DNA of 64,000 nt from Watersipora subatra (lineage: Eukaryota > Bryozoa > Gymnolaemata > Cheilostomatida > Watersiporidae), in contig NC_088708.1 in NCBI RefSeq assembly GCF_963576615.1, forward strand, positions 2,480,001 through 2,544,000, written 5' to 3'. Made by a program: the position numbers and the translations under genes. Shown here piece by piece: positions 15,433 through 60,323 of the stretch; the first letter of the stretch is position 1, and each line of letters opens with the position of its first letter. Below the pieces are notes generated by a model. The model was not told the origin of the DNA, ran no database searches, and saw nothing but the letters and a program-made list of their open reading frames with translations.

Positions 15433-18043
15433 CTAATGGTTTGATAAGTTTTCCGGCCATCCTCTAAGAGTGAATATTGTACTGACAAAACTAAAGTAGT
15501 CCTGAATTTTCAACATCAAACCTTTTGCAGTCTGAGAACGCTGATGCCTGAATTGCTGGCGAGGTGACTCACAATCACAAATGGCTTGAAATAATCTTTG
15601 GAGGTGTGAAGAAGAGTCATTAGGAGTGACCGGGGCACTTAATGCTCGTCGTGGAGCTGGTCTGCATTTGATGTACATCATTGCATCCTTGTCCCACGAG
15701 TACCTGGTAGCTGCAGCAACTCCGCTGTCATTTATAGTATGTATTGCATACAAAATTGACTCCCCATCTCCGGGGTCTGCTGAAATGGTCATGCAACAAC
15801 TGACTCTTAAAGTAATAAACTGGTAAACAAAGGAGTCTAGTACCAACTCATACATATACAACTGACCCTTAAAGTAATAAACTGGTATACAAAGGAGTCT
15901 AGTACCAACTCTTACATATACAACTGACCCTTAAAGTAATAAACTGGTATACAAAGGAGTCTAGTACCAACTCATACATATACAACTGATCCTTAAAGTA
16001 ATAAACTGGTATACAAAGGAGTCTAGTACCAACTTATACATATACAACTGACCCTTAAAGTAATAAACTGGTATACAAAGGAGTCTAGTACCAACTCATA
16101 CATATACAACTGACCCTTAAAGTAATAAACTGGTATACAAAGGAGTCTAGTACCAACTCATACATATACAACTGACCCTTAAAGTAATAAACTGGTAAAC
16201 AAAGGAGTCTAGTACCAACTCATACATATACAACTGACCCTTAAAGTAATAAACTGGTATACAAAGGAGTCTAGTACCAACTCATACATATACAACTGAC
16301 CCTTAAAGTAATAAACTGGTGAACAAAGGAGTCTAGTACCAACTCATACATATACAACTGACCCTTAAAGTAATAAACTGGTATACAAAGGAGTCTAGTA
16401 TAAACTCATACATATACAACTCACCCTTAAAGTAATAAACTGGTATACAAAGGAGTCTAGTACCAACGCACACATACACCCCCTTTACTGCTGACCTGCT
16501 CTAAATGCATCTTACATTAAACCACAGACACCATAAACATTCTTTGAAACAATGAGACGCTTGTGACAACTACAAGACAAAATAGACTAATCAATAATAG
16601 ACAACAAAACGAGCAGTCTACCTTTCAACCTTGATTCTTTAGATGATCTCCAAGACTTGTTAGTGGTTGTTGACAAAGCTGTCAACGGTCTCCTTCTGCA
16701 CACTGAATGTAGTTTCGTCCTATAACCAACAGACCATAACCGCCACTCTACGATAGTTTCATTATCAGCACTGTGTCCTCCAGACTATGTTAAAGTTAGA
16801 ATCTTTTCCATTCAATCATAAAATACTTTTCTTTAGTAATGCTACAGGACCTCACATATATTCACATACTAAAATCTCTTCCTGTTCAACAAGTACAAAG
16901 ATCATATACTTTCTCAGTTTGTTCAAATTATAGTGAGTCAATTAACGAATTAAAAATAATCTGTATATGCAATTCAGTTAATAAAGTAAAAATAACTTGT
17001 ATATGTAAGTCAGTTAATAAAGTGAGGATAACCTGTATATGTAAGTCAGTTAATAAAGTAAGGATAACCTGTATATATACGTATGTCAGTTAATAAAGTA
17101 AGGATAACCTGTATATGTAAGTCAGTTAATAAAGTAAGGATAACCTGTATATGTATGTCAGTTAATTAAGTAAGGATAACCTGTATATGTAAGTCAGTTA
17201 ATAAAGTAAGAACAACCTGTATATGTAAGTCCGTTAATAAAGTAAAAATAACTTGTATATGTAAGTCAGTTAATAAAGTAAGGATAACCTGTATATGTAA
17301 GTCAGTTAATAAAGTAAGGATAACCTGTATATGTAAGTCAATTAATAAAGTAAAGATAACCTGTATATGTAAGTCAGTTAATAACGTAAGGATAGCCTGT
17401 ATATGTAAGTCAGTTGATAAAGTAAGGATAACCTGTATATGTAAGTCAGTTGATAAAGTAAGGATAACCTGTATATGTAAGTCAATTAATAAAGTAAGGG
17501 TAACCTGTGTAAGTATGTCAATTATGTATTATGGGTATACTACTGGAATAGTAACTACTTTGTAATAGTAACTGTAATAATGTAACAATAACTTTATTAC
17601 ACAGAGCACTTAGTTCATAAGGTATCTACAGGTCATTAGCTGTGTGACTGGCTGTGTGACTGACTCTATAGTTGTATGACCTACCTTGATAAATCGCAGT
17701 CTTCAGTGCTTTCCTTTTTAGTCATACTGTCATAAGGCAGAAATTCATATGACTCAACTGCTATAGACAGCTGGGGCTCTATCTGAGATGTATTATATTT
17801 GTTTTCTATGCTGTGTAAAGGACGTCTCTGCAATGGGAACAGAACAGGTCACCCAATACATCCACAGCATTACATAACGCAACCTTCAGTTGAGAGCTTA
17901 CTCTGGTACATCCTGATAACTCTTCTTGGTCTATTACAGACGGTAAAGGGATAAATGATTTCCATAGCATTGAGCTTTCTTCTTTAAATAAGGGTTTGTT
18001 GGTAGAATTACCTGTTGAATGCAACTTTGCATGATATATGACT
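15433..18043 (-). CDS. C-terminal four exons of an unrecognised protein
   Basis: I do not recognise the product. Four minus-strand exons join in phase: 18043-17902, 17827-17685, 16719-16622 and 15779-15433 (TAG stop), giving 242 residues. Each internal exon has a pyrimidine-rich 3' splice site (TTCTCTTCTAAAG, TGTTCCCATTGCAG, TTGGTTATAG, ACCATTTCAG), and the donors are GTAAGC, GTAGGT and GTAGAC. Junction phases 0, 2 and 1 all carry through without a stop, which is strong evidence for a real gene. The protein is Ser/Thr- and Arg-rich with basic stretches (for example KSWRSSKESRLK and CRPAPRRALSAPVTP) and no domain I can name. An upstream exon must end in phase 2 and was not found; it may lie beyond the 38-bp array. 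Introns contain the 36-bp and 62-bp arrays. Poly(A) signal at 15391-15386. Confidence 0.6.
15799..16476. repeat. 62-bp minisatellite, ~11 copies
   Basis: Head-to-tail unit beginning CTTAAAGTAATAAACTGGTA, then TACAAAGGAGTCTAGTACCA. It lies in the last intron of the minus-strand gene and its first unit starts only about 19 bp from that intron's 3' splice site at 15780. Confidence 0.93.
16937..17528. repeat. 36-bp minisatellite, ~16 copies
   Basis: Unit GTAAGTCAGTTAATAAAGTA then AGGATAACCTGTATAT, with a few point variants. It lies in the intron between 16719 and 17685 of the minus-strand gene. A plus-strand frame at 16839-17093 is a product of the repeat, not a gene. Confidence 0.92.
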
Positions 18044-18342
18044 CTTTAGAAGAGAAACAATGTAACATTCCTTTAAGAGTGACTGTCTCATATATGTAGC
18101 ATATTCATTCACACAGTATTTACTAAGACCTATTCAGCATTTCCAGCATATTTGAAGTTTTCTATCTAGTTACCTGTTCACAATCACTTATCTATTTAAT
18201 TAATCTGGCGCATAAGCAGAACCACAGATATTTGCAAGCAATATGTTACAATAAAGCAATGTAAAGCAGCAATGACCGATTGCGATGAGAGTTAGCCAGC
18301 AAACATAACCGAAAGATAATAAAGATACGTAGTTCGTTCTAC

Positions 18343-19104
18343 CCACTATTTACTGTAGTTGTATATAGATTATATTGCTATTGATATCTACTGTAGTTGT
18401 ATATAGAATATATTGCTATTGATATCTACTGTAGTTGTATATAGAATATATTGCTATTGATATCTACTGTAGTTGTATATAGAATATATTGCTATTGATA
18501 TCTACTGTAGTTGTATATAGAATATACAGCTATTGATATCAACCGTACTTGTATATAGAATATACAGCTATTGATATCTATTGTAGTTGTATATAGAATA
18601 TACTTTTATTGATATCTATTGTAGTTGTATGTATAATATACAGCTATTGATATCTACTGTAGTTGTATATAGAATATACAGCTATTGATATCTACTGTAG
18701 TTGTATATAGAATATACAGCTATCGCTGTCTACCATAGCTGCGTACAGCATATACAGCCATTGATGTCTACCATAGCTGCGTACAGCATATACAGCCATT
18801 GAAGTCTACCATAGCTGCGTACAGCATATACAGCCATTGATGTCTACCATAGCTGCGTACAGCATATACAGCCATTGATGTCTACCATAGCTGCGTACAG
18901 CATATACAGCCATTGATGTCTACCATAGCTGCGTACAGCATATACAGCCATTGATGTCTACCATAGCTGCATACAGCATATACAGCCATTGATGTCTACC
19001 ATAGCTGCGTACAGCATATACAGCCATTGATGTCTACCATAGCTGTACGCAGCTATGGTAGACATCAATGGCTGTATATGCTGTATGCAGCTATGGTAGA
19101 CCTT
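18343..19104. repeat. 38-bp minisatellite in two sequence classes, ending in an inverted copy
   Basis: 18343-18720 has units like CTACTGTAGTTGTATATAGA. 18720-19045 has a diverged but same-length class (GTCTACCATAGCTGCGTACA). At 19046-19049 the array flips: about 55 bp (19050-19104) are the reverse complement of the preceding units with one mismatch, around a 4-bp spacer TACG. The result is a near-perfect hairpin. Confidence 0.93.
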
Positions 19105-19832
19105 TTCACACCTTTGTTTTCTTATGTAGTCTTCATTAAGATAAAATGGATGGTAGAAAAATTATGGTTAGCACTTGAAGCAGCTTGTTAAACCTTTACA
19201 GTTAAAGGATGTAAATTGCATGTAGAATTTGGTTAGTGTATAGAACTCTAGTTATGCGTGTGAAGTATGAAAAACAGTATTTCAAACACGCAACATACCA
19301 GTACACACAACATACCAGCTCTTTGTATAAATTCCATGATATTCCCTGACGCGACATTATCGCTACAGGAATAGCTGAAACAGTGCACCTTCGAAGTAAA
19401 ATATGCGGATTATTTGGGTGAGAAGTGATTAAAGTGGTTCAACAGCGCAACTGAACTGTACAACACAGCTGTACAACAGTGTGTACACATGATAACTGGT
19501 CTCGATAACAAGAGTTGAACAAAAAATCCTATATTTTCTACGCAGCCTGCTAATTTTATAGTTACATTTCCGGTTAGTACATTATCAATTATTTTTTGTG
19601 TTTAATTCATGTTTGTCGATAGATATTTCTATATATCTGTTTATCTATTTTCACTGTAGGAATAAACAAATTTTCTGTTTTTGTATACACATTTTGCCAT
19701 TGTATACTTATGTTTTCTGATTAGCTATTTACTTTTACTGTTTGTATAGTTACATGTTATGTTAGTGTATTTACATTCCCTGTTGTACGTCTGGCATTCC
19801 GGTTCATTTCTTTACCATAATTGTAGTATTAC
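19105..19832. other. Non-repetitive, AT-rich; nothing recognised
   Basis: No exon, RNA gene or transposon end found on either strand. Confidence 0.4.
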
Positions 19833-20942
19833 TACTAGTGAGTACTTAACTCTGTACTACTAGTGAGTACTTAACACTGTGCTACTGGTGAGTACTTAAC
19901 ACTGTACTACCGGTGAGTACTTAACACTGTACTACTGGTGAGTACTTAACATTGTACTGCTGATGAGTACTTAACATTATACTACTGGTGAATATTTAAC
20001 ATTGTACTACCGGTGAGTACTTAACACTGCACCATTGGTGAGTACTTAACACTGTACTACTGGTGAGTACTTAACACTGTGCTACTGGTAAGTACTTAAC
20101 ACTGTACTACCGGTGAGTACTTAACACTGTACTACCGGTGAGTACTTAACACTGTACTACCGGTGAGTACTTAACACTGTACTACTGGTGAGTACTTAAC
20201 ACTGTGCTACTGGTGAGTACTTAACACTGTACTACTGGTGAGTACTTAACACTGTACTACTGGTGAGTACGTAATACTTACTTAATGAAGAATACTTAAC
20301 ACTGTACTACTGGTGAGTACGTAATACTTACTTAATGATGAATACTTAACACTGTACTACTGATGAGTACTTAACACTGTACTACTGGTGATTATTTAAC
20401 ACTGTACCACTGGTGAGTACTTAAAACTGTACTACTGGTGAGTATTTAACACAGTACTAATGGTGAGTATTTAACATTGCACTGCTGGTGAGTACTCAAC
20501 ACTGTACTACTGGTGAGTACTTAACACTTACTTAATGATGGATACTTAACACTGTACTACTGATGAGTACTTAACACTGTACTACTAGTGAGTACTTAAC
20601 ACTGTACTAATGGTGAGCACTTAACACAGTACTACTGATGAGTATTTAACACTGTACTACTGGTGAGTACTTAACACTGTACTACTGGTGAGTACTTAAC
20701 ATTGTACTACTGATGAGTACTTAACACTGTACTACTAGTGAGTACTTAACACTGTACTAATGGTGAGCACTTAACACAGTACTACTGATGAGTATTTAAC
20801 ACTGTACTACTGGTGAGTACTTAACACTGTACTACTGGTGAGTATTTAACACAGTACTACTGGTGAGTATTTAACATTGTACTACTGGTGAGTACTTAAC
20901 ACAGTACTACCGGTGAGTACGTAACACTGTACTATTGGTGAC
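19833..20942. repeat. 25-bp minisatellite, ~44 copies
   Basis: Unit TACTACTGGTGAGTACTTAA then CACTG, with local insertions (GTAATACTTACTTAATGAAG-like) that themselves recur at 20272 and 20325, showing multi-unit duplication. Confidence 0.94.
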
Positions 20943-24164: not shown

Positions 24165-25289
24165 TGTTATGGGTGGATGTGGAGAAATTATGTTATGCAT
24201 AACTAATCCATGAAAACATGTGTTGAAATTGCTTGTCATATTATTCTATTTTGACTATGCTTAGTTTGCACACTTTTGCTTAGCTTGTGGGAACTAATTT
24301 GATTATTAATGGTTCAGGTACAAGTGAAGGTATTGAGCTGTTGTAAACAATACTGATATTTACCAGTAAAAGTTACTTCCTTATTCTATAAGTCTGACAA
24401 TTAAAATACACAACTAACAAAATCCTAAACAATAATATTAATGTCAAGAGGTTAAAATAGCTAATAAAAGTTACACCCTTACTCAAACGGTCATCTATGT
24501 TTGCTTGCTTGGTTCATATGGCTGCGAGTCTCGATAATCAGATGAGAGTCATGGCAGTCATTATATGTAGAGGCACGGTAGTTGAAATAGAGAAGTAGAA
24601 GAAGATCAGCTGATGATGGCGAAGGAGGCTCCATAGGTAGGGAAAGAGTAGACGCTCTAGAGGCAGAGGGAAGTGAGAGGGAGGCTCCAGAGGGGGAGAG
24701 ACGCTCTTTAGTAAGCAGAGGAGAGAGCGTCCAAGGAGGCCCCCGAAAAGAGAGCTGGATGGAGATACAGATGCTGAATCATTGGAGCTGTTCTTTTTTA
24801 TAGATGCCTGGCATGTGGGATGGTTAGCCTGTGGGTATAGGTTGAGTGTTAGGGTTCAATGCTTTATGTCAGGATTGTAAAAATATCTTGCTTGTGTAAG
24901 TCTTCAGCTGGTGCACGTGATGTTGACATGTAGGGTGGAGCTTGTGACTTACTCCTGGTATCCAGGTCATGTTTGACAGGAGTGGCAGATCTATATTTGT
25001 GTACTCATTTGATTCAACTCTAATGTTTCTCTGACGGTTTTCTGGTGATGGTGGTTGAAAGGTTTAATTGCTTCGTCATCTTTTCGGCATGTTCACCATT
25101 TGGTTCTGACGCAATTTTTATGGTTAATTCTTCCAATTTTTAAGTTTTTAATTTACTTTCGACATTTTCTAATTATTAGATCTTTTGATGTCTTTGGGCG
25201 TCTTGCTGCATGCACGTATTATATACTTATCCTGTGGTCTGGCCGCATTCCCTATTGGTATATTGTTTTTGCAGTATTTCCATACAGCC
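24165..25289. mobile_element. Solo LTR (copy 1), probably Ty3/Gypsy-type
   Basis: 1125 bp closely related along its length to 43808-44993, in the same orientation. It begins TGTTATG and ends CATACAGCC (CATACAACA in the sister copy). It is flanked by a 4-bp direct repeat ATGC (24161-24164 and 25290-25293). A TATA-like TTTTTTATAGATG follows GGAGCTGTTC near 24790. No gag/pol frame lies inside or beside it, so a solo LTR left by recombination is the simplest reading. A 4-bp target duplication fits Ty3/Gypsy (inference). Frames inside it are not genes. Confidence 0.72.
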
Positions 25290-30891: not shown

Positions 30892-33800
30892 ATGGCGCTC
30901 TTTAGCCTTGAGAATGACTTTGATAAAGCGTTGAGAATGGATGGACCAATCTCTAAAGGGCCAACAATGAGATGGCAGCGAAAATTGAATGAGTCAAGTG
31001 GAAATAGCAGTTCTCTGACATCTAATGGTTCTCTTCTTCAAATGAATTCATCTTTGGGTGGGAAATCACCCGCAAAACTCCGTAGGTCTCTTAGTCTCTC
31101 GAGCATTCAAACGAAAGAGAATAACTCCAACAAATCTACTCCATCACGTCGAAGTCGCACACCAGGTACCCACTATATCTACACAGTTATGTTAACTAAT
31201 TTTCATATCACACCAAGATTTGAAAGTGAGACCGAAGACTGTATGGGCGTACTGTAGGGGTACAAATATTTTGAGTGAGCTAACAAAATTTCTTGCTAAA
31301 GTTGATCTGTACAGCCTTATACATCCAGAAACCAAACAATTGAGAATTGTCAAAGGTTGCAGACATTCTGTCGAGTAGGAGAGCCTTAGCTAAACTACTG
31401 GTGTCAATCACTGGTTTCACTTTTAAATTAGTTTTAATCTAGTTGTTCCATAAATTTTTTAAAACAAATTTGAACCAATCATGTTTGGTCATCTTCATCC
31501 CTCTGCATTCTACACCTGACTTCTAGCTTAACGTTTCACATGCTATATTTTTTTATATTACCTCAACAGGTAATACGATGCATCTAGAACTTAAGCTTAT
31601 GACCTGGTTTATTTCGCCATAACATCATACTTTTTAACACGCTATCAGCTCATTATTCTTAGTGCAAACAATGGAAATAAAAGATTTACCAAAAGCTCCT
31701 TTGAGGCTCCATTTAATTCCAGGTCGATTCAAGACACCGACAAAACAATCAGCTGCCTCTGGAGATAGATTCATTCCAAATCGCTTCTCCACTGATTTCG
31801 AGTCAGCTCACCATCGCGCAAGTCAAAACCATTTAGCTGACACAAAGCCTGCTGATACAGCTAACAGTGACGTAAACAATTTAAAAAAAGAGGAGTTTGA
31901 GAGAGTTATGTCTGCCAACTTGAATGGAGAGCAGCCATCTGCCAAGATTCTTGCATTCCGCCAGAAGGCGCCTGCAGCTCCTGAAGGTCATCATCATCAT
32001 ATTAACTAGAATATATTTTATACATCTTCCTGGTCTTGTCATAGGAAAATAAATGTTTGCCACATTACATGAATTTAATTATGTGAGTGAAATTTTTTAC
32101 ACTTTACATGAAATTTTATATTTCATGTAAATCATTTAGTTGACCTCTTTAACTACTGAAACCAGGCCCCTATTTTTACTAATCTAATGAGAGCTTATAA
32201 ACACCATCAACCCTTCTGCTGATGTCAATGTCCACAATATTTCAGGTAGCCGCAATACTGGTATGGCCTTATGGACTCTAATTCATTGATTTCACTGTTG
32301 CCTATTAAGGTCATATGTTTGCTAGTTTGGAGTGTTCATAATAGGCGCATTTATCTCTTTAAAGGTTGGCTTGCAACAAAATTCACATTACAGTTATTTG
32401 ATATCAAAAGATTCACCATGTCTTACTCTGTTGTGTTGTAGGTGCCAAATATGAGGGAATGTGATTACAAGCTCTTAAAAGCCAAAAAACGAACAGTTAA
32501 TCGCAGCCACACGAGATCGCCATAGTTTGGATTCTCTTTCCAAAACGGCTCAAACAGCTGTGTTAGATGGTTTCTGTTTACACTTTCATGCAACCTTATT
32601 CGTCGAAATATTTTCACAAATATACTTCACGCATTCAATAAAACCATGTCTATTGTTCTTACGCGTCTGTTTTATCGTCATTGTAATTCTGTCACTTTTA
32701 GCAATGATATCTTATAACTTACCGTAAAAATTTGTTTATTTTTTTAACATTACCTCGAAGGAGTACATATCATTGTTTGATAATCATGACGAGCCTGTTG
32801 GTCACCTGTGATAATCGAAAAGTGCTGCAAAAATTATTTTCGAAGTATTGGGGCACATGATCAGATTACGACTTGCCGATTAGACCAGGTCGAAACAAAA
32901 CTAAAGTAGCGAGCATCTATATTTGATATGGGGTCTTCGGTAAAACCCGAAGTGTTTGTCATAAACTAGTGCTACGATAAGTTTATATTGAGCTTTTTAT
33001 TGGCCTTTCAATTCACGTGAGAACATAAAGTGACAAGACAATGAATAAATTTCATGGCTACGTCAGAAAAATAAAGAGATTCCAATCTACAGCGGCTTTT
33101 CGTTTTTGAGCTTTTAAGAGCTTGTAATCACATTTCCACATATTTTGCACCTACAACACAACAGAGTAAGACATGGTGAATCTTTTGATACCAAATAACT
33201 GTAATGTGAATTTTGTTGCAAGTCAACCTTTAAGCTTATGTACCTGACGTGCTGATGTTTTTACAGGGCATCTTAACAACCTAAGAGTCTTATACAGTCA
33301 GCACAAGACCCCATCATCTACCGCTAAAAAGACAGCTAGGCACATCCCTTCAGCCCCAGAGAGAATTCTAGATGCTCCTGATCTTCTGGATGACTTCTGT
33401 ATGTTCTTTCAACTTGTTTGCTCTGTGTGATTAGGCTTGTCAACTTAAACAGTTTCATCTTCTGTAGTTATTATTTTGTCACTCCAATTATTAGTTTGGT
33501 CCTTAGGCTAACTATCTCATTTGGATAAAAATTACACATTGATAAGCTTTGTTCACCCAAGCTAACCACACATGCCACCATTCCAAATCGATTTGTTCAT
33601 TGCGAGCCTAGGCTACCTTTTTGTGGGCTTCACAGTAGTGTTCATGTATTACCCCATGTTATCTCTGTTTTTCTTGAATAGATTTCATATGTTACATAAT
33701 AGTTCTCATGTGTTAAACATGTTTCAAATTGTGTAGTTGATGTGCATCACTTTTAGATCTCAATCTGCTCTCATGGTCCAGCGGTAACCTGCTGGCTGTG

Positions 33801-35413: not shown

Positions 35414-37571
35414 TTAGCCAACTTTACTCAGGGTTGCATCATCAAACTCTATTCTATACATCGTTCCATTGTGGTAGTGGGCTGAGACTTTGGCATTCTG
35501 TAACATATTATTTAATAACATTTTGATACAATTATATTATAAATACAACAGTAATATTATTTGGGATGTTCACAGAAATATGCATGCACTGGTAACGCAA
35601 AGCACATAAAATTGACTAAGGAAGTCCATTGTATTGACCATAACTGCTTACGTAGTTTGAGCCAATGAGGAACGCCTCAATGATGCCAGCGGTGAAGGAT
35701 GTGCATTGTACATTCTCTACAATTCAACAAGGACTCTCGTATGAAACACTTATACAAATCTTCATAACGTAATGGCAGCCTTCAGAGTTAACAAATATGT
35801 AGCAATTTATGAGCATGATTCTCCGTGAATTAACAGCCTTTCAATGTGCCAGCTGTTAGGTGAATAAAAAGTGGTTATACAAGATGGCCGGTCATGTCAG
35901 TAAAAATAAGTATAAAATAATACTCACGTCGATCCTTTGGCATGGAAAAGAAATTGTTTACTAGAGGTTCCTTTTCTAATATGTAATCTGATTGGTGAAT
36001 AAAGGAAATAAATAATAACAGTAACAACATGTATGCCACTTTTTATGAGTGAACTCGAGATTTACCAAAAAGGATACAGACATTCTGATCCTTCTGGTCC
36101 TGATTCAGCCCATCAGCTTCCCTTCCGAACAAGCTCTATGATACAAACACAATTAATGCTCATTAAAACCCAATTGAAGAGAGGTTAACTTAGTATGAGA
36201 TGCAAAAGCATTGATAAAAGAAAATTTATGAAAATAATGAGAGCAGAGCGCTTTGATCTGGTAAAAATAGTGCATGTAATTTAGTATACTTACTCTCCAT
36301 ATGCTGGTAGTGCATGTAATGAGTGAACTTACTCTCCATATGCTGGTAGTGTATGTAATGAGTATACTTACTCTCCATATGCTGGTAGTGCATGTAATGA
36401 GTATACTTAATCTCCATATGCTGGTAGTGTATGTAATGAGTATACTTACTCTCCATATGCTGGTAGTGCATGTAATGGGGTATACTTACTCTCCATATGC
36501 TGGTAGTGTATGTAATGGGGTATACTTACTCTCCATATGCAAATAGTGCATGTAATGAGTATACTTACTCTCCATATGCTGGTAGTGCATGTAATGAGTA
36601 TACTTACTCTCCATATGCTGGTAGTGCATGTAATGAGTGAACTTACTCTCCATATGCTGGTAGTGTATGTAATGAGTATACTTACTCTCCATATGCTGGT
36701 AGTGTATGTAATGGGGTGTACTTACTCTTCATATGATGGCAGTGCATGTAATGGGGTATACTTACTCTCCATATGCAAATAGTGCATGTAATTTAGTATA
36801 CTTACTCTCCATATGCTGGTAGTGTATGTAATGAGTATACTTACTCTCCATATGCTGGTAGTGCATGTAATGAGTGAACTTACTCTCCATATGCTGGTAG
36901 TGTATGTAATGAGTATACTTACTCTCCATATGCTGGTAGTGTATGTAATGGGGTGTACTTACTCTTCATATGATGGCAGTGCATGTAATGGGGTATACTT
37001 ACTCTCCATATGCAAATAGTGCATGTAATTTAGTATACTTACTCTCTATATGCTGGTAGTGTATGTAATGAGTATACTTACTCTCCATATGCTGGTTTTG
37101 ATAAATGTAAGCATTTTCTGAAGATTTATTTCTCTTTTATATCCTTTCTCTCTAATATAATTTACATCGAGTATCTTCGTACCGACTTCATAGCCAAGCG
37201 CGTGCAACCTGCAGTTAAGTATGGCAATGAAACGCAAGTAAAAATAGAATGTAAGCTCATGCTAAAATGCAAGCAATTAGAATGTCAACTAAAGAGCAGA
37301 TTAATGTTACTGCTGCTATCAGTACCTGCCATTGAGATCTGAAACTGTGCTAGCACGTTTCTCGCAGTAGGATACCATCTCTGAGAACAGAAACGCAAAT
37401 GTTGCCACATTTATCTAAAATATACAAAAAGGATAAATAAACTAGTAAATCCGCCAGCCAGTAAAACAATAAATATGCTTGATGCATTGAGACAGAAGTG
37501 AACCAAACCTCTGCTTTGCTCTTGCTTAGTGGCCTGTCTAAAATGCTTGCTTTCCGTCCTCCTGTAGACAT
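35414..37571 (-). CDS. TRAPPC5: TRAPP complex subunit 5 (Trs31/BET3 family)
   Basis: Seven minus-strand exons: 37571-37509, 37414-37326, 37208-37082, 36135-36066, 35987-35928, 35716-35652, 35497-35414. Phases all agree, 185 residues (human 188). TRAPPC5 is a core subunit of the TRAPP complexes that tether vesicles and act as Rab1 exchange factor at the ER-Golgi. Family landmarks seen in order: SILDRPLSK near the N-terminus, FAFLFSEMVSYC, LHALGYEVG, REKGYKRE, SLFGREAD, EKEPLVN, CTSFTAGIIEAFL, and the C-terminal KVSAHYHNGTMYRIEF. The ATG at 37571 gives the expected N-terminus and sits 7 nt after a splice acceptor (TTTTTTATATTTGCAG). Intron 3 is filled by a 39-bp array built from the exon 3 end and its donor. 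Convergent with CDC20. Confidence 0.95.
36267..37098. repeat. 39-bp minisatellite made of the TRAPPC5 exon 3 / 5' splice site
   Basis: About 21 copies of a 39-40-bp unit. Read on the minus strand, each unit is the last ~15 nt of TRAPPC5 exon 3 plus ~24 nt of intron, junction ATATGGAGA|GTAAGT. The authentic exon end (37082) is the first member. One unit (near 36405) has lost GTAAG (reads TTAAG). Two have AAGA instead of GAGA before the donor, and the first duplicate has TAG in place of TGG. Blocks of about 237 bp recur (36540, 36777, 37014). Periodic frames on both strands arise from the unit length and are not genes. Confidence 0.95.
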
Positions 37572-41585: not shown

Positions 41586-41973
41586 AATGTAAACTTTTAC
41601 AGACTTTTTGTTAGTATCTAGTTCCCTGCACCATGATGGCTAGTTGTCATTCAATAATCTTTTAATGTTGCGGCTGTGAAAGTCTTATAAAGTTAGCAGT
41701 CAGCAGAGCAACGCAAATTGGTCAGTTCAAACAATCAATGTTAAGCTTTAGCCTGCCTGCTTGCGTAATATAAATACTGCGCAATTGTTAGGAGAATCAG
41801 TTTGTGTTTTGCTCCTGAGGGAGACACAGACATATTACTTCAATAAAATTTTTTATTCGTTGAAGAAATATTATCACTAATGATGTTCATTAAATAACTG
41901 ACATGATGATTAGAACAAAAGAGTTATTGCTCTTACAAAACATTTAGTTCCTTTCTGTTATGTCCAGCTAGTT
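41586..41973. other. Unique sequence; nothing recognised
   Basis: No supported gene or element. Confidence 0.35.
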
Positions 41974-42655
41974 GTATTGCAAGAAGCATTGAGTTCAGCG
42001 CGCTCTGTTGCTTTCAGCAGAGCATTAGTGAGTTCCTTTTAGCTCACCCCAGTTAAGTCTAGTAGGCTGTATTGTAGGAAGCATTGGGTTCAGTGCATTC
42101 TGTTGGTTTTAGCAGAGCATAAGTGAGTTGGTTTCAGCTACTTCCTGGTAGGTTCGGCAGATTGTGCTATAGGTAGCATTGGTTTAGCACACTCTGTTAG
42201 TTGCAGCAGAGGACAAGTGAGTTGGCTTCAGCTCTTTGCTGTTGGGTTCAGCAGCTTGTATTGTAGGAAGCATTGGGTTCAGCGCACCGCTGGTTTTGTG
42301 AGAGTGTGCTGACCTCACACTTATGGGTTCGGCGTAAAGATATGTTTGAGTGATGAACACTGCATATAGCAATCACGTGTGAAAAACTGACTAGCTATAG
42401 CTAAAAATGCTTTTTATATAAAAAGTAGGAGGGTATGACTGATGTCAAAACATAAATATTGCCAAACACAACTTGGTATATGTGACCCACAAAATTAGCC
42501 AAAATATACATTTTATTTTTTAGACACAAATGTGTTGATGTTGCCCAATGGGTTGGTTCTAGCTCTCTCCTGCTGGGTACAGCGGGTTGTATTGCAGGAA
42601 GCATTGCCCTCAGCGCACTGCTGGTTTCAACAGAGCACAAGTGAGTTGGTTTTAG
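41974..42655. repeat. ~95-bp tandem repeat, ~5 diverged copies, interrupted
   Basis: Units start at about 41974, 42069, 42164, 42258 and 42589, with core GAAGCATTGGGTTCAGCGCA then GTGAGTTGG and CAGC. The fourth and fifth units are separated by about 235 bp of other sequence. The last unit abuts the LINE fragment. Confidence 0.8.
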
Positions 42656-43807: not shown

Positions 43808-44993
43808 TGTTATGTGTGGTTGCGGAGAAATTATATTATGCATAACTAATCCGAATTCACACACAACATCAGTGTTGAATTTGCTTGCCATATTATTCTA
43901 TTTTGACTATGTTTAGTTTGTGTACTTTTGCTTAGCTTGTGGAAACTAATTTAATTATTACTGGTTCAGGTACAAGTGAAGGTGTTGGGCTATTGTAAGC
44001 AATGGCCAGCAATGCTGATATTTACGAGTAAAAGTTACTTCTTTATTCTATAAATCAAACAATTAAAATACACAACTAACAAAATTCTAAAACAATAATA
44101 TTAATGACAAAACAATTAGAAGAGCTAATGAAAGTTACATCCTCACTCGAACGGTCATCTATGCTTGTTGATCAGTCCTGTACAGCTGTTAGTTTCGACA
44201 GTCAAACGAGGGTCGTGAGAGGCCATAGGTAAAGAGTGTCGGCAGTTGAGATAGTGGCGTAGAGGAGGCTCAGCTGGTAGAGGAGAAGGAGGCTCCAGAG
44301 AAGAGTAGAGAAGAGAGACAAAGGCTCTCTTCTCTACTCTTCTCTGAGTAGAGAAGAGAGCCTTTGTCCTTTGAAGAGAGCCAAGCAGGCAGATGGGAAA
44401 GCGTCCAAGGAGGCCCTCGGGAAGAGAGCGAGAGCCCGAGCTCAAGCTAGGGCCGGAGATAGAGATGAGGATAGAGATGCTGAATCATTGGAGCTGTTCT
44501 CTTTTATAGATGTCTGGCATGTGGGATGGTTAGCCTGTGGGTGTAGGTTGAGTGTTAAGGTTCAATGCTTCATGTCAGGCGTGTGAAGATATCTTGTTTG
44601 CATAGGTCTTCAGCTGGTGCTTGTGATGTTGACATGTAGGGTGGAGCTCGTGACTTACTCCTGGTATCTAGGTCATGTTTGACAGAAGGGGCAGATCTGT
44701 ATGTGACTCATTTGACTCATCCCTAATGTTTCTCTGGTGGCTTTTTGATGATGGTGGTTGGTAGGTCTAATTGCTTCGACTTCCCTTTGGCATATTCTCT
44801 TTCTGGTTTAGACGGAATTTCTATGATTGATTTCTTCCAAATTTGAAGTTTCTAATTTGCTTTTGATATTTTCTAATTATTGAATCTTTTAATGTCTTTG
44901 GGCGTCTTGCTGCTTGTATGTATTATATGCTTATCCTGTGGTCTGGCTACATTCCGTGTTGGTATTTTATTTTCGCAGTACCTCCATACAACA
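43808..44993. mobile_element. Solo LTR (copy 2)
   Basis: 1186 bp, sister of 24165-25289. Begins TGTTATG, ends CATACAACA, with terminal TGTT..AACA. Flanked by a 4-bp direct repeat ATGG at 43804-43807 and 44994-44997. It differs from copy 1 by an AG-rich insertion containing a perfect 22-bp inverted repeat (44318-44339 with 44346-44367, 6-bp loop). No internal retroelement genes. Its right end is about 840 bp before DNAI2. Confidence 0.75.
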
Positions 44994-50314: not shown

Positions 50315-51620
50315 GATGTACTCAGAAGATCTCTCAGAAGTAACTCTTACTAACTTAATTCTCTCTTTCATGCTTCATTTTGTAAATATTACTATTTATT
50401 ATACCCATAATGTAATACGTGTTTTAAAAATGTACCAAATATGACCAAGACTTTGCTTCTCATCTCTACTACTCCTTTGGTTCAAATGGGATGTCTGCAA
50501 CAATTTCATATGCATGTCAGACTAGTGCACTTACATGTAACACTCCATCAAAGTCGTGCTAGCTTTTATATGGGGTATCGATTGAAAAAAGGTCTAGCTT
50601 TATACTGAGCACGCGCAACTATCAGCATGTATTTGGGCGGCTATCTATTTGTCAGCAGCCTGGTGCACTGCCGCTAGCCTTAGAACCAAATGAAAGGTGT
50701 GCCCTAGTTATGTGAATGGGTGGTTTTGGAAGCCTCACTCAGTATTTGATAAACTTTGATACTACACAGCTCCCTGCTACTCTAAACTTTTACAAAAGGT
50801 TTGAAACCTTTTCAGGATTTTGTCAAAAACTATAATTAGTTTGTTGCCAAGGGTGAAATAAGCAAATCAACCACGGTATATTATTAATTCATTTTCACAT
50901 GAGATGAGTATGCAACTCCTTACATTATTTCCTTACTCCTAAGCAAAGTGATTTCAGCATTTTGCAGAAGCGCATTCAGAAATTTTGCATCAACTTGGTA
51001 AGTTACCTTCAACACTAAAGCCAATAGTACTACAAACTAGCAGAGCCTGCAGGCTTCGCTGTGGTCATGATATAAATTAACAAGTCTTACACAGGCATCT
51101 ACATACATGGCACATCTACATGAAACAGCTCCACACCAGTTAAACGATATAAACATTTCTGTACTTGCATATTATTTATAATAACTCCATTAAACATATT
51201 TTGGCAACACCTAGTTTTATCCAGCCGTTTAAAGACAACAACGAGCATTGGAAGTCTTATATGCAAAAGTTGACCTCACAGCTAGATGCCCTACAGCCTG
51301 CTTTATTGATTACAAAAAATATGAATCAATTTAAGATATCTCGGTGAACAAGGTGGCACAAGATAAACAATGGATTTTGAAAGAAAATATTGTATATTTA
51401 TAACACAAAATAGAATACAAAATTAAACAAGCAAATTATATGGAGATTTCTGCCTGGCTGCATAAATGAGGTGCCAGCGAGCTCTGTGCTCCTGAGAATT
51501 TATGCAAAAAGGAATGTGTTACAATCTCCTATCTATGATAGCACTTAGACAACAAAATGCTGCCTATAACCATTAATAAATATAACAGACGATAAATAGA
51601 ATAGAATACGAGCTGCTGAG
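50315..51620. other. DNAI2 3' flank and SRPRA downstream flank
   Basis: Convergent interval between DNAI2 (plus) and SRPRA (minus). No canonical AATAAA close after DNAI2. A minus-strand AATAAA at about 51307-51302 could serve SRPRA but is 500 nt from its stop. A 60-codon plus frame at 51165 is not recognised. Confidence 0.35.
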
Positions 51621-51621
51621 A

Positions 51622-51772
51622 ACATGGCTTATGCTGATGGGAACATGGCTAATGCTGATGGAAACATGGCTTATGCTGATGGGAACATGGCTTATGCTGA
51701 TGGGAACATGGCTTATGCTGATGGGAACATGGCTTACGCTGATGGGAACATGGCTTATGCTGATGGGAACGT
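51622..51772. repeat. 21-bp tandem repeat, ~7 copies, SRPRA 3'UTR
   Basis: Unit ATGGCTTATGCTGATGGGAA+C. Being a multiple of three it stays open on both strands (plus reads MAYADGN repeatedly), but it begins just after the SRPRA stop codon on the opposite strand and has no gene context of its own. Confidence 0.92.
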
Positions 51773-51801: not shown

Positions 51802-54800
51802 TCAAGCTTTCATAAGAGCAGATACTACAGCACGGGCATTAAGGGTCTTCAGGTCCGTGTAGGTTTGACCAGTGCCAACGAACACTATAGGCTGACCCGT
51901 TATATAGGTCATAGATATGGCTGCTCCAACCTGAAGGTGATAAACAAAGGATGCCAGTACAGAGCTTTCGGGTTTAAACAGAGCTCTAGGAATACTCGTA
52001 CAATGACAGTTATAGCAATGGATACAATGAGGTCAGGTAATAAATACGCTGTACAGTTAAACAGGCTCGCTGTACCTCTACACAGTTAGACAGACTCGCT
52101 GTACCTCTACACAGACAGGCTCGCTGTACCTCTACACAGTTAGACAGGCTCGCTGTACCTCTACACAGTTAGACAGGCTCGCTGTAACTCTACACAGTTA
52201 GACAGGCTCGTTGTACCTCTACACACACAGGCTCGCTGTACCTCTACAGATTATAGATTGTTATTTGTACTTTGTGTCAAATAAATACATAATACCGTAT
52301 TCCATGTATCTTAGTAAATAAAAAACAATTAACAAATTATAAGAAAAGCATTCCTAGAAGGAAAAATGTGACAAAATAACGAGTTAAGGGAGCAACACAG
52401 ACAGGCTCAAGTTGAAATAGAGACCCAGGCTACACCTGGCCTCTTCTTATGCATATATGGTAGATAGTCTTAATCTATTCCACTATAGTAACTCGCTCGA
52501 GAGTAAGCTCTTCGGCCTGTCACTCCTGTTATAAAAAAGGCCGCGGACAGCCGCTGAGCTGAGAAAAGATAAGGGCAGAATAGAATGACCAGTGTGGGAT
52601 GACCGGTGCGATAAGGGTGTCACTAGCGGTACAGGAATATTTCTAGAATCCACTGGTCTATTTCTCGAGCAAGTAATGGTGCTAGCGGGTAATAAATAGA
52701 GTAAATAACAAACCCAACCACTATCAGCGAGCTGACCGAAATATCTACCTTATCGTCAATGGTGTCAAATTTGGTAAGAACGATTCCATCAATGAGGTGA
52801 GGGTTCTCCTGCTGCGAGTGGTCAGCAAGAGCCTGGTTAAACTTGACCAGCTGGTCCACCGCCTCATTGCCGACAAGAGCCTCACCAACAAACAGCACCA
52901 AGTCAGGCTGGTTCACCTTGATAAGCTGCGCCATGAGAAAAAAGCATGAGATGTAATTGACAGAGACAAAAAAGTTAGTTATATCAGGACAGTCCTAGAA
53001 CACAGGCTACAATCGATGCACGGCTATGAAGAGAGGTCCATACCTTAGCCAGGGATCTCATCAGTGGTTCGTTATCCTGCATTCTACCAGCGGTGTCCAC
53101 CAGCACAACATCTGTCTTGGTGTCTCGAGCTATGGAAATATAATGAGCTATGAAAATATACATTAGATGCAAGACAATACATTTTGACCTAACAATTGAG
53201 TGCACATATCCTAAATACTACATACACTATGTTTCTTTCCACGATGCTCGTGATTCGCAAACTTGAGCCAATCTGCAAGTTAACCGCGTCATGGAAAAAG
53301 TATAAATTCGCAAGCTAAGCAGTTTTGCAATTTGCAAAACTTTATCGAATCTATCATGCTTGCGAATAATGGAAACACACTTGCAAATGATGCACATTAA
53401 AATACTACGCCAACTATTCAATTTTAAACATTTTCAATACATCCGTCGTCCTTTCTTGATCGAGCTTCCCGCGTTTGCGTCGCTAACACGTGTGTTGCTA
53501 GTTATTAACTTATAGCGTACAATTCCTTACCTTTTTTTCAACAAGGCGGAGTTAATCCACATCATGCGAATGTACATAGAAACACTTAAAATTCGCATGG
53601 TCACGCAACGTGGGCACAACTCCAAATCCGCATGATGCGAGTCATGGAAACATAGTGATAGTAAATGTACCACATGCGCAGCAGCAAGCATACGACACTA
53701 AAAGTCAGGCAATGCAGTCTTATATATCAAAGCAATGAATATTGATTAGTGGGTATAGTATTGTCAATGAGCATTGAACACTTGCTGACTACTATACAGG
53801 GCCCAACCGTACAATATGGTTGCTAACAAGCAAGTAATGGCAGCCGGGTTCCTTTCTAACCGTGAGCAAGCGCTGACATTGCCACAAAGGCAGCATCCTT
53901 ATCATAGCCTTTGTCAAACAATTGCACCATCTTTTTGTCGTTCTGTATTCGGTTCAGTTTCCTTGTGTGTGTTCGCAGCTGTTCCACAGCACCAGCACGG
54001 AAAGTATCGCAGGCAGCGATCAGCACAGTGAGACCATTCTCAATTAGCCAGAAAGCCACCTACAACAGAGTGATGTAAAACGCTACTGTAACGCAACAAT
54101 GATACAAATTAGATAACGACAGGAAGTGTGCAGAATCAACACAACCAACTCTTGTGCACACAAATCATTAAATGTTATTATAAGTTCTAGACTAACTTCC
54201 TACCTTGGAGAGGTTTGTAGATTTGCCTACGCCGTTCACTCCGCAAAACGTTATACAATATGGTTGACCTTTTGACTTAGCATCCATGGCATCTCTGAGA
54301 ATGTCGATTCGGCGCTTGGGTGACAGAATCTGCACGCATGATTCCTGCAGAGTTGATTTGACAGTTGAAGCCACGCCTGCAAATTGAGCATAGTCGAGGA
54401 AAAGATAGGTTAAGGCTGCAGGAATGAGAGTGGGCGGGAAAGAAGAGGTAAATGTAATAACATGTTATAACTTACCACTAAAGGTTCCCAACACTTTGCC
54501 CTCCAATTTAGTGGCAACAGAATCGCACAGCTTCGCCGCTATGTCAGATGCAACATTCTTAGCTGAAACCAATTATGATCTATTATGATCTAAAGCAGCA
54601 GCATGGAAGTTAATGACAGGAACACAATGGATTGGTCAATAAAATAATTAAAGACAAGAACAAACATCTTTCACGTGATCCCTGTCATCGCCCCTGATTC
54701 TGACACGCTTTGACGTGTAATAAAATTCCAACCATGTAAGAAAGTTAATTATTTCGACTGTTGCACTCGCATGATAGTGGGAGATCTTGCTATGTTGACA

Positions 54801-57800
54801 TTATTACAAGCAAAACCATAGTGAGGATGAGAGTTAAAGTCAAAATGCTGATACCTTCTGAAGTAGAGCTACTCAAAGCAAACATAGTTTCTGGCTCTCT
54901 GAGACCAGCACATAAAACCTGCTCCTACATGCCACCATTCATACCATGACAAATATTTCATAGCTGGCTATAATTAGTGCACACATTTAAATGCGGCATG
55001 TTTATTGCGGATCCCTTGCTGAGCTGGATATTTTCATGCAATACCTTTAACTGAAGTCTATTCTATACTTTCCTATCTAGCAGCGAGATAGTCACAGGGA
55101 GGAGCATCTCAACTTACCTATCAGATGGTCCTTCATTTTTTCAAGGGCGGGCGCTACTGACTCCTTAGTCAGAGTTTTGGACATGGAGAGTGACTTAAAT
55201 ATACCGAAGATGCCCCCCGAGCTACTAGCATCGCTAAAATATACAAAGCATATCATCTGCCGAGGGCAAGGTTACGTATTTAAAGACTTGGCTGAATAAT
55301 AACTTTTTAGCAAGGAATGGTGGACACTCGGGGCAGTAGGGAGATACACTTGACAGGTATCAAGTAGGGAGATGCGCTTGACAGGTATCAAGTAGGAAGA
55401 TGTACTTGACAGGTATCAAGTAGGGAGATGCACTTGATAGGTATCAAGTGGGTGATGTACTTGACAGATATCAAGTGAGAGATGCACTTGACAGGCATCA
55501 AGTAGAGAGATGTACTTGACAAGTATCAAGTAGGGAGATGTACTTGACATGTATCAAATAGGAAGATGTACTTGACAGATATCAAGTAGGAAGATGTACT
55601 TGACAGGTATCAAGTAGGGAGATGCGCTTGACAGGTATCAAATAGGAAGATGTACTTGACAGGTATCAAGTAGGGAGATGCACTTGATAGGTATCAAGTG
55701 GGTGATGTACTTGACAGATATCAAGTAGGAAGATGTACTTGACAGGTATCAAGTAAGGAGATGCGCTTGACAGGTATCAAGTATGAAGATGTACTTGACA
55801 GGTATTAAGTAGGAAGATGTACTTGACATGTATCAAGTAGGGAGATGTACTTGACAGGTATCAAGTGAGAGATGCACTTGACAGGCATCAAGTATGGAGA
55901 TGCACTTAACAGGTATCAAGTGAGAGATGCACTTGACAGGCATCAAGTAGAGAGATGTACTTGACAAGTATCAAGTAGGGAGATGTACTTGACATGTATC
56001 AAATAGGAAGATGTACTTGACAGATATCAAGTAGGAAGATGTACTTGACAGGTATCAAGTAAGGAGATGCACTTGACAGGTATCAAGATGAAGATGTACT
56101 TGACAGGTATTAAGTAGGGAGATGTACTTGACATGTATCAAGTAGGGAGATGCACTTGACAGGTATCAAGTGAGAGATGCACTTGACAGGCATCAAGTAT
56201 GGAGATGCACTTAACAGATATCAAGTGAGAGATGCACTTGACAGGCATCAAGTAGAGAGATGTACTTGACAAGTATCAAGTAGGGAGATGTACTTGACAT
56301 GTATCAAATAGGAAGATGTACTTGACAGGTATCAAGTGGGAGATGCTTGACATGTATCAAGTAGGGAGATGCACTTGACAGGTATCAAGTAGTTAGATGC
56401 TTGACAGGTATCAAGTAGGGAGATGCACTTGGCAGGTATCAAGTAGGGAGATGCACTTGACAGGCATCAAGAATGGGAGATGCACTTGACAGGTATCAAG
56501 CATGGAGATGCACTTGACAGGTATCAAGCAAGAAGGACGCCACTCACCTGACAGAAGTATCACTTGAATTTTCTTCTTCTTCCTCCTCTTCTCCATCAGT
56601 GTCAAGGTCCTTGAGAGCGCCGGTCATTTGACCCTTCAATTTCATCTGTAAATATTGCCCATCATATTGATATCATACTCATGTTATAAAGCAGGAGTGA
56701 TTAGTCTCTCACAATCTCGTATTCATTTTAAGGCTGGCATAACAATTTCTTTTGAATGAATGCATATTTTACAAAGTTTAACAGCTCGCTGAAGCTCAAT
56801 ATTTCAATAAAAGAAATCCAGCAGTTGATCTTAGCACGCAAATATCAATGTTTCCACGCTCTATGATTAGCCATTTATACAATCCTTTCTTTAGTATATG
56901 GAACAGAGCAGAGCTGCTAATATTTAATGTACCGAAGAGTGCATTTCCTATTAGTTAGTCTTTCAAGAGATGGATCCTTCGAACAATGCGAATACCACAA
57001 ATCATAACCAGTCTGGATTAAAGACTGCATGTTGTGATTTCCACTGTGGTCATTCGGCTTTGACCAGTTTAGCACTATAAGAAAATGTTTAAAGTTATTT
57101 GAACTTAAATCAAATAATTAAAGAATTATTATTACTACTACACATTTCTACAAGTAAACCTCAAAAACTGAGCGCTTAACATAGTAAATCAGTAAACAAG
57201 TTGAGCAGGTTAACCGTCATATAAAATACATGTATATAAATTATGGCAATTTATAAGGTTGCAAATCTTTTTTTGGGTTGGCACAACAATAAATACTAAT
57301 CCATGAAATTGTGTTACCTATAACCTTCTCCGATTTTATGGAAACTCAGCTGCAACTGTTTCTTTGAAGAAATGACACAGTCGTAAGAAGACTTTTGAAT
57401 AATGGAACAAAGCAAAAGATATCGCTAAGCAGCTCAAGGAGAACATTAGAACTAATATAATCAACTCCTTACAGATGAATTTACACACACTTTTTGTAGA
57501 TTCCATCAGAAATTATCGGCATTTTTCTATCTTTTGCGATTGTTTGATGTCTGAGGTGATCTGATTGTCAGGATGTTTTTAGAATAAAATCAATAAAAGT
57601 AATCGCGATTAAAACGCTCAGAAAGAAACATACGTGCAAAATGTTGTTATCACCAGTTGTTATTGTTGCTATAGTTGATATCAGCTATTGTGTTCAAGGT
57701 GAAGCGTTACTCGTCTCTATTCTGTCGGTCTTTTTGCAATTATAGATGTCATAATCGCACTTTTCGTTCATCTGATCGTTTTAATCGCGATAAATTGACC

Positions 57801-60323
57801 TCAAACATCAAAAACAATTGGAAATGATAGAAAAGTACCAATAAATACTTTCTGATAAATCTACAAATGTTTCGTGTAAGTTCATCTTTAATGAACCAGC
57901 CAAACCACACCCATATGATGGACAAACCACACCCATATGATGAACAAACCACACCCATATGATGGACAAGCCACACCCATATGATGGACAAACAACATCC
58001 ATATGATGAGCAAACCACACCCATATGATGAACAAACCACACCCATATGATGGACAAACCACACCCATATGATGGACAAACCACACCCATATGATGGACA
58101 AACTACACCCATATGATGGACAAGCCACACCCATATGATGAACAAACCACACCCATATGATGGACAAACCACACCCATATGATGGACAAACCACACCCAT
58201 ATGATGGACAAACCACACCCATATGATGAACAAACCACACCCATATGATGGACAAGCCACACCCATATGATGGACAAACAACATCCATATGATGAGCAAA
58301 CCACACCCATATGATGAACAAACCACACCCATATGATGGACAAACCACACCCATATGATGGACAAACCACACCCATATGATGGACAAACTACACCCATAT
58401 GATGGACAAGCCACACCCATATGATGAACAAACCACACCCATATGATGGACAAACCACACCCATATGATGGACAAACCACACCCATATGATGGACAAACC
58501 ACACCCATATGATGAACAAACCACACCCATATGATGGACAAACCACACCCATATGATGGACAAACCACACCCATATGATGAACAAACCACACCCATATGA
58601 TGGACAAGCCACACCCATATGATGGACAAACAACATCCATATGATGAGCAAACCACACCCATATGATGAACAAACCACACCCATATGATGGACAAACCAC
58701 ACCCATATGATGGACAAACCACACCCATATGATGGACAAACTACACCCATATGATGGACAAGCCACACCCATATGATGAACAAACCACACCCATATGATG
58801 GACAAACCACACCCATATGATGGACAAACCACACCCATATGATGGACAAACCACCCCCATATGATGGACAAACCACCCCCATATGATGGACAAACCACAC
58901 CCATATGATGGACAAACCACACCCATATGATGGACAAACCACACTCATACGATGGACAAACTACACCCATATGATGGACATACCACCCCCATATGATGGA
59001 CAAACCACACCCATATGATGGACAAACCACACTCATATGATAAACAAACCACACCCATATGATGGACAAACCACACCCATATGATGGACAAACCACACCC
59101 ATATGATGGACAAACCACACCCATATGATGGACAAACTACACCCATATGATGGACAAGCCACACCCATATGACAAACCACACCCATATCACATCAATATC
59201 TATGGAAATTAGACCTCTACCTTGCTCATATGTCAGTTTCAACAAGAGACGGGCACACACAAGCTGAGTAACTAGAGTCTATCAGTAAATAGAGTATAAC
59301 AAAGTTATTCCATCAGTAACTAGAGTATAATAAAGTTAGTCCACCAGCAACTAGAGTTTAATAAAGTTAGTCCACCAGTAACTAAAGTATAACAATGTTA
59401 GTCCATCAGTAACTAAAGTATAACAATGTTAGTACATCAGTAACTAGAGTATCTATCAGAGTATCCATCCAACAATGATAGTTGATCAGTAACTAGAGTA
59501 TAATAAAGTTAGTCTATCAGTAAATAGAGTATAACAATGTTAGTCCATCAGTAACTAGAGTATAACAATGTTAGTCCATCAGTTACTAGAGTATAACAAT
59601 GTTAGTCCAGCAGTAAATAGAGTATAACAATGTTAGTCCATCAGTAACTAGAGTATAACAAAGTTAGTCTATCAGTAACTAGAGTATAATAAAGTTAGTC
59701 TATCAGTAAATAGAGTATAATAAAGTTAGTCTATCAGTAAATAGAGTATAACAATGTTAGTCCATCAGTAACTAGAGTATAACAATGTTAGTCCATCAGT
59801 TACTAGAGTATAACAATGTTAATCCATCAGTAACTAGAGTATAACAAAGTTAGTCTATCAGTAACTAGAGTATAACAATGTTAGTCCAGCAGTAACTAGA
59901 GTATAACAATGTTAGTCCAGCAGTAACTAGAGTATAACAATGTTAGACCATCAGTAACTAGAGTATAACAAAGTTAGTTAATCAGTAACTAGAGTATAAC
60001 AAAGTTAGTTCATCAGTAACTAGGGTATAACAAAGTTAGTTCATCAGTAACTAGAGTATAACAAAGTTTGTCCATCAGTAACTAGAGTATTCATCCAACA
60101 AAGTTAGTCCATCAGTAGCCAGCAGCCAACAAGATTCTAGAATAACGTAAGTTAATATGAATTATAAACGCAACAGACCTCGCTGACTGCCACGTTCACT
60201 TCATCGCTGTTTGCAGAAGTCTTGAACACATCCAATTCTGCCATATCTTTTTTCCCTCCACCAAGATCCCATTTTCTGCTTTCCTTCACCCTTTTCTTTG
60301 GAGCATCATCTGACTTAACAGCC
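51802..60323 (-). CDS. SRPRA: SRP receptor alpha subunit, C-terminal part (5' end outside window)
   Basis: Nine minus-strand exons: 60323-60179, 56645-56548, 55233-55118, 54562-54476, 54376-54204, 54059-53861, 53129-53044, 52925-52749, 51930-51802; all phases agree, 402 residues to the stop. SRPRA is the GTPase that docks SRP-ribosome complexes at the ER membrane. Seen: charged linker ([17 protein letters not shown]; run of Glu), N-domain ([17 protein letters not shown]), then G-domain motifs GVNGVGKST (P-loop), [24 protein letters not shown] and VFVGTGQTY, ending SALMKA like the family. The first exon begins in phase 2, so the N-terminal SRX domain and roughly 230 residues lie further right, beyond the window or in exons I could not find before 64000. 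Introns hold four minisatellites and a TIR element. Confidence 0.95.
52053..52253. repeat. 29-bp minisatellite, ~7 copies, SRPRA last intron
   Basis: Unit GTTAGACAGGCTCGCTGTAC then CTCTACACA, some units lacking GTTAGA. Lies about 120 bp inside the intron upstream of the last exon. Confidence 0.88.
53225..53657. mobile_element. Short TIR element (MITE) in SRPRA intron
   Basis: 433 bp bounded by CACTATGTTTC and its complement GAAACATAGTG, with repeated TTCGCA/TGCGAA motifs just inside both ends. ATA flanks both sides (a 3-bp duplication would suit PIF/Harbinger, but ATA is not their usual target). No coding capacity. Confidence 0.6.
55330..56530. repeat. 28-bp minisatellite, ~43 copies, SRPRA intron 2
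   Basis: Unit GAGATGCACTTGACAGGTAT then CAAGTAGG, with length variants and multi-unit blocks that recur (for example around 55420 and 55670, and around 55500 and 55930). It ends 18 bp from the exon ending at 56548, whose end plus donor resembles the unit. Confidence 0.94.
56646..57897. other. SRPRA intron, unique part; nothing recognised
   Basis: Low-copy AT-rich intron sequence without an exon or transposon end that I can support. Confidence 0.4.
57898..59190. repeat. 22-bp minisatellite, ~58 copies, SRPRA intron 1 of window
   Basis: Unit CAAACCACACCCATATGATG+GA. Variant blocks (with AACAACATCC) recur at 57991, 58277 and 58629, offsets 286 and 352, both multiples of 22. The reverse complement of the unit has no stop in any frame, so minus-strand frames of up to 306 codons appear (22-residue period). 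They are repeat artefacts. Confidence 0.96.
59268..60115. repeat. 31-bp minisatellite, ~27 copies, same SRPRA intron
   Basis: Unit TCAGTAACTAGAGTATAACA then ATGTTAGTCCA, with AATAAAGTTAGTCTA variants. Ends about 64 bp from the exon at 60179. Confidence 0.94.

Follow-up and report, generated by a model that had tools for sequence, protein, structure and literature searches.

The window analysed here is a 64,000-nt stretch of the Watersipora subatra genome, and all coordinates are given as positions in it. The complete coding region of TRAPPC5 lies on the minus strand at 35414..37571 and consists of seven exons joined at GT/AG sites (in gene order 37571-37509, 37414-37326, 37208-37082, 36135-36078, 35987-35928, 35716-35652 and 35497-35414). 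The joined exons yield an uninterrupted frame of 181 codons with a single terminal stop. A first-draft protein, in which one exon was still in the wrong frame, was used as query for the database comparisons and matched the Pfam TRAPP family with E=1.2e-26 and solved TRAPPC5 chains in the PDB with E=9.8e-46. Exon 3 (37082..37208, 127 nt) finishes with the bases ACCAGCATATGGAGA, which correspond to the terminal codons ACC AGC ATA TGG AGA. It is followed by intron 3 (36136..37081), which starts with GTAAGTAT at 37081, finishes with TATCATAG at 36136 and has a length of 946 nt, while the other introns of the gene measure 94, 117, 90, 211 and 154 nt. Downstream of TRAPPC5 a CDC20/Fizzy-like gene on the plus strand appears to be arranged tail to tail with it, the two stop codons (35414 and 35331) being 82 nt apart. 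One exon piece of this neighbour matched WD40_CDC20-Fz with E=7.4e-54 and a score of 183.5 bits, which is below the cut-off of 200, and the tail ending in GRGIR before the stop at 35331 was assigned to it by eye.

Tandem Repeats Finder revealed an array at 36268-37096 with a period of 39 and 21.0 copies, and in addition a period of 237 bp. Splitting the array at the donor (36269..37096, minus strand) resulted in 21 units, 12 of 39 bp and nine of 40 bp, each representing a copy of the end of exon 3 together with its donor. The repeat unit straddles the exon-intron boundary, with 15 nt corresponding to exon 3 and 24 or 25 nt to intron 3, and the homology begins 15 nt inside the exon (ACCAGCATATGGAGA/GTAAGT). 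In unit 1 (37058..37096) the 15 exonic nt are the authentic end of exon 3 and the donor is the real one; in the open gene model the genuine exon 3 boundary is itself one unit of the array. The GTAAGT motif is kept in 20 of the 21 units, or in 19 of 20 if only the copies are counted, and the repeat units thus offer donors. Unit 18 has lost its donor by a change to TTAAGT (36405..36410), and the last intact donor belongs to unit 21 (36269..36308), from whose first intron base at 36293 an intron of 158 nt is predicted. A first-pass annotation of the stretch had described a minisatellite multiplying a 5′ splice site about 21-fold within TRAPPC5 intron 3, with unit 1 as the real exon end, about 24 nt of intron behind the 15 nt of exon and the donor in each unit, and about 20 intact GTAAGT motifs. 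Our unit counts and the open gene model agree with this description, both for the roughly 21-fold donor and for unit 1 as the real exon end.

The multiplied junction is beyond chance. In 40,515 nt outside the arrays GTAAGT was counted 10 times on the plus and nine times on the minus strand, compared to 20 occurrences within the TRAPPC5 array. For a comparison with other splice sites we used a second gene on the minus strand (51802-60323, nine exons in open frame in a model without the 5′ end of the gene), two pieces of which match SRP54-type GTPases and which we take to be SRPRA. For a total of 28 junctions (six donors and six acceptors of TRAPPC5, eight and eight of SRPRA) near copies of the junction 24-mer were sought within the same intron. 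The donor of TRAPPC5 intron 3 was found at 20 further sites in the intron with at least 19 of 24 matching positions, while 100 shuffles reached at most 16 of 24, and it was the only one of the 28 junctions multiplied at the level of at least 19/24. The best of the other 27, an SRPRA acceptor, reached 16/24 and was equalled by three of 100 shuffles. A search of viral contigs for the TRAPPC5 pattern gave nine stretches and no relative, and a 20-mer of the unit had 0 matches in viral contigs; in both searches the records of the window's own genome were possibly excluded. Rfam and tRNA scans of the window gave no matches.

The 21 units fall into 10 distinct types, and unit 1 is identical over its full length to units 5, 7, 11, 17 and 19. 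Furthermore, a higher-order duplication is present at 36584..37057 (minus strand), where units 2-7 and units 8-13 form two blocks of 237 bp each with only two differences. One of these is a TAG in unit 2 (37046..37048), which stands in frame at the place of the TGG of unit 1 and is restricted to this unit; the corresponding unit of the other block, unit 8, reads TGG. From these identities and the similarity of the blocks we infer that the array is either young or strongly homogenised and that the TAG is a late change in one unit. For the same reasons the authentic boundary itself seems to take part in the homogenising exchange.

The array goes back to a tandem duplication of the boundary, covering the last part of exon 3 and the first part of intron 3, as shown by the coincidence of unit 1 with the exon end. 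Since the exon part codes for a conserved protein, the direction was from exon to intron. After unit 21 the intron continues with CACTATTTTTACCAGATC, and the same CACTATTT is carried by the junction type CACTATTT/GCATATGG found at the start of units 3, 9 and 15. Judged from the letters, the first duplicated segment may have extended from GCATATGGAGA to CACTATTT, thus comprising 11 nt of exon and 29 nt of intron, and ACCAG may have spread later from the real exon end into the inner units. Growth to 21 units probably proceeded by unequal exchange or slippage, for which the recent duplication of the 237-bp block and the identity of unit 1 with five inner units argue. Long tandem arrays are prone to misassembly, and the copy number or even the whole array could be an artefact of the assembly. 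Nevertheless, the units show informative differences, as seen from their 10 types, and an intact gene flanks the array on either side, so that we regard such an artefact as very unlikely.

Exon-intron boundaries duplicated in tandem in the manner of a minisatellite are known from lancelets, where they are called mirages. The excerpts of two papers on which our comparison rests describe them for BflGb6 and BflGb9 and, from earlier work, for Adh3, whose units measure 10-72 bp (PMC3087553), as well as for troponin C and PGBD5 (PMC3902484). Like the TRAPPC5 array, these mirages consist of tandem repeats across an exon-intron boundary with splice signals in the repeats, and they turn over by exchange within the cluster. 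At 39/40 bp the TRAPPC5 unit falls within the range of Adh3 and is shorter than that of BflGb6 (150-160 bp), whereas the number of 21 units exceeds the six and three units of the two BflGb6 haplotypes (PMC3087553); somatic instability is described there for Adh3. A further difference concerns the first unit, which in TRAPPC5 is identical to inner units, while the boundaries of the lancelet clusters are described as excluded from homogenisation (PMC3087553). According to the same excerpt, RT-PCR of the globins and the Adh3 data suggest that regular splicing is undisturbed, although many repeats carry AG/GT signals whose cryptic use is conceivable. The excerpt of PMC3902484 likewise states that the Adh and TnC mirages yield no aberrant mRNAs, and for PGBD5 it mentions one gene prediction that makes the repeats an exon without transcript support. 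The TRAPPC5 structure is a mirage-like minisatellite in which the three structural features of this known kind are found, and it is not a novel class. A literature search found no paper naming both TRAPPC5 and minisatellite; excerpts of papers on intron repeats in earthworm metallothionein (PMC12783039), on fish myostatin (PMC3045353), on an hTERT repeat (PMC2915984) and on competing donors in DOK7 (PMC5585400) deal with subjects without bearing on the argument.

The TAG of unit 2 determines what the use of a later donor would mean. Splicing at any of the donors 2-21 would add 39 to 788 nt to the transcript and bring in the TAG in frame 11 codons beyond the true exon end. The first-pass annotation had noted TAG for TGG in the first duplicate and had concluded that the choice of a later donor leads to a stop codon; the former could be assigned to unit 2, and the latter applies to every donor from 2 to 21. 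With three introns located downstream of the stop, nonsense-mediated decay of such mRNAs is expected.

This stop also bears on a possible role of the array in intron gain, in which an inner unit would at some later time become a new exon, or the exon border shift, so that new intron positions could arise from the array. Such an intermediate has been published as a model for mirages and proposed for the lancelet globins (PMC3087553), and internal repeats located at exon-intron boundaries of human genes may likewise give rise to new introns (PMC2812944). Another model is that of Rogers, Zhuo 2007 and Gao and Lynch 2009 (as cited in PMC3087553), in which introns are gained by tandem duplication of AG/GT sites. 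Tandem duplication copying splice signals is common to this model and to the TRAPPC5 array. In the model, however, the new intron arises inside a former exon, whereas in TRAPPC5 an existing intron has become longer and the coding sequence is unchanged. No new intron within former exon sequence was found at this junction, since the protein aligns there without insert or loss and the copies lie in the intron. Considering that the alignment to solved relatives shows no insert in TRAPPC5 at this place and that inclusion up to any of the donors 2-21 reads the unit-2 TAG, we judge an intermediate of intron gain to be quite improbable.

The strength of the donors was compared by calculating their duplex energies with the U1 5′ end. 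The best score, −8.3 kcal/mol, occurs in 15 of the 21 units, namely in unit 1 and in 14 of its 20 copies, and the remaining units have −7.8 (two units), −6.4 (three units) and −4.5 (the broken donor of unit 18). The five other donors of TRAPPC5 pair weaker with U1 (−1.3 to −7.7 versus −8.3 for donor 1). In local folding the unpaired probability is 0.005 for donor 1 and 0.000-0.051 for all 21 donors, compared to an RNA-wide mean of 0.070; the array RNA folds slightly better than its shuffles (z −1.69, none of 20 shuffles as good). Secondary structure was rejected as a selector of donor 1, as all 21 donors are poorly accessible. Donor 1 is thus singled out by neither U1 pairing nor structure, since its energy is common to 15 units and folding hides all 21. 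The length of the intron even speaks for the last donor, from which an intron of 158 nt would be close to the other introns of the gene (90-211 nt). With donor 1 the intron measures 946 nt, and this tension remains. Donor 1 could be favoured by the exon sequence that precedes the repeat and by the order in which the donors are transcribed, and the precedent of other mirages would point the same way.

If the donors themselves were selected for, they should stand out among the columns of the unit. Among the 10 distinct units one of 16 column changes falls into the six donor columns of 40, with about 2.4 expected for an even distribution; this count is a weak measure because it takes alternative letters per column and counts linked changes separately. 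Invariant runs of five to seven columns occur elsewhere in the unit, too. According to this weak test the donors are not visibly better protected than the rest of the unit, and selection preserving them is unsupported at the little power of the comparison.

In human IFI6 (6-16, G1P3) a minisatellite reportedly provides several splice donors, a finding that is ascribed to Turri, Cuin and Porter in 1995. An array offering several donors is what this gene and TRAPPC5 have in common, and splicing of IFI6 makes use of the donors of two downstream repeat units, giving rise to three mRNAs (PMC4526556). Such use would be the basis of a competition in TRAPPC5, in which the ladder of near-identical donors captures U1, a copy-number-dependent share of the transcripts proceeds to later donors, takes up the unit-2 stop and is destroyed, and the length of the array tunes TRAPPC5 output. 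The 20 intact donors of 21, the U1 energy shared by 15 of them including donor 1, the ordinary length of the intron behind the last donor and the inclusion of the TAG by every donor from 2 to 21 are compatible with this, as is the IFI6 precedent. Nevertheless, the repeat donors of IFI6 are used in mRNA, whereas the TRAPPC5 copies are putative donors whose use would bring in a stop codon. No sign of selection on the donors is visible, and the TAG is present in unit 2 alone, from which the stop must be considered recent. In addition, the excerpts of PMC3087553 and PMC3902484 mostly describe normal splicing for the mirages of lancelets, and we consider a dosage effect of competing donors unlikely.

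We rather favour with good confidence a neutral, unstable minisatellite of the mirage type, in which donor 1 is normally used. Neutral slippage, a decoy array and isoforms sensitive to nonsense-mediated decay had been offered side by side in the first-pass annotation. The evidence leans to slippage, given that the donors are not visibly better preserved in the weak test, that the block duplication is recent and that published mirages mostly splice normally, while a regulatory function found no support. By analogy to the published mirages the copies would be tolerated because donor 1 stays in place and is normally used, and the array would leave the transcript together with the intron. Low-level use of later donors may generate transcripts with an early stop, which would be removed by nonsense-mediated decay. 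Most likely the array has no effect on TRAPPC5 or a small one, and the number of its units is probably polymorphic, of which the recent block duplication is an indirect sign. We give little credence to a length-variable splice-site rheostat, in which the proportion of TRAPPC5 transcripts that run into the unit-2 stop and are degraded would depend on how many equal donors are present; if true, a fast-mutating minisatellite would adjust the amount of a core trafficking protein from one individual or cell to another.

Independently of this, the locus represents a natural competition experiment, with 20 intact and evenly spaced donors, 15 of them with equal calculated U1 energy, in the intron of a conserved gene. 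The donor that is actually used would reveal which of position, exon context and intron length governs the choice in this animal. TRAPPC5 extends the short list of genes with boundary minisatellites, and the window is rich in arrays, which makes this host suitable for asking how often minisatellites start at splice sites.

Four arrays are located in introns of SRPRA (at 52053, 55335, 57901 and 59276), and another one follows its stop codon (51612-51770). The 28-bp array at 55335-56535 (minus strand) starts 12-19 nt behind a donor whose intron begins at 56547, and its unit resembles the exon end (TGATACCTGTCAAGT versus TGATACTTCTGTCAGGT), matching exon end plus GT with a 2-nt gap at a score of 18. 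This score was reached by none of 300 shuffles in a first test, which has to be read against 39 flank tests made. In a larger test it was reached by 130 of 20,000 shuffles, 215 of 20,000 Markov samples as well as 25 of 1,966 real 80-nt stretches. The ungapped junction test gave 14/24 for this array, which was equalled by 10 of 100 shuffles, and after all these tests we do not claim a second mirage. In the 31-bp array at 59276-60090 (minus strand) the gene-strand unit resembles, by eye, a 3′ splice site (GACTAAC ... TTTGTTATACTCTAG).

Among the other arrays of the window, a 34-bp tandem array with about 436 copies and 93% matches extends from its first base across 14.8 kb (1-14811). GTAAGT or GTGAGT is present on one strand of the unit consensus in four of 14 arrays (16956-17524, 19830-20941, 41951-42287 and the TRAPPC5 array at 36268-37096), compared to 0.59 expected by shuffling (P ~0.002, for a motif chosen after the fact). 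In the three arrays outside TRAPPC5 the motifs lie mostly on the plus strand, and no gene was matched there. Exon-like pieces on the minus strand at 15436-19390 surround the arrays 15796-16476, 16956-17524 and 18347-19037, with no Pfam match for the pieces tried. Finally, the open frames at 32479-32724 (plus) and 63433-63723 (minus) encode peptides that by eye look strongly alike, and a weaker likeness was seen between those at 24494-24855 and 44158-44484 (both minus), which suggests that these pairs are dispersed repeats.
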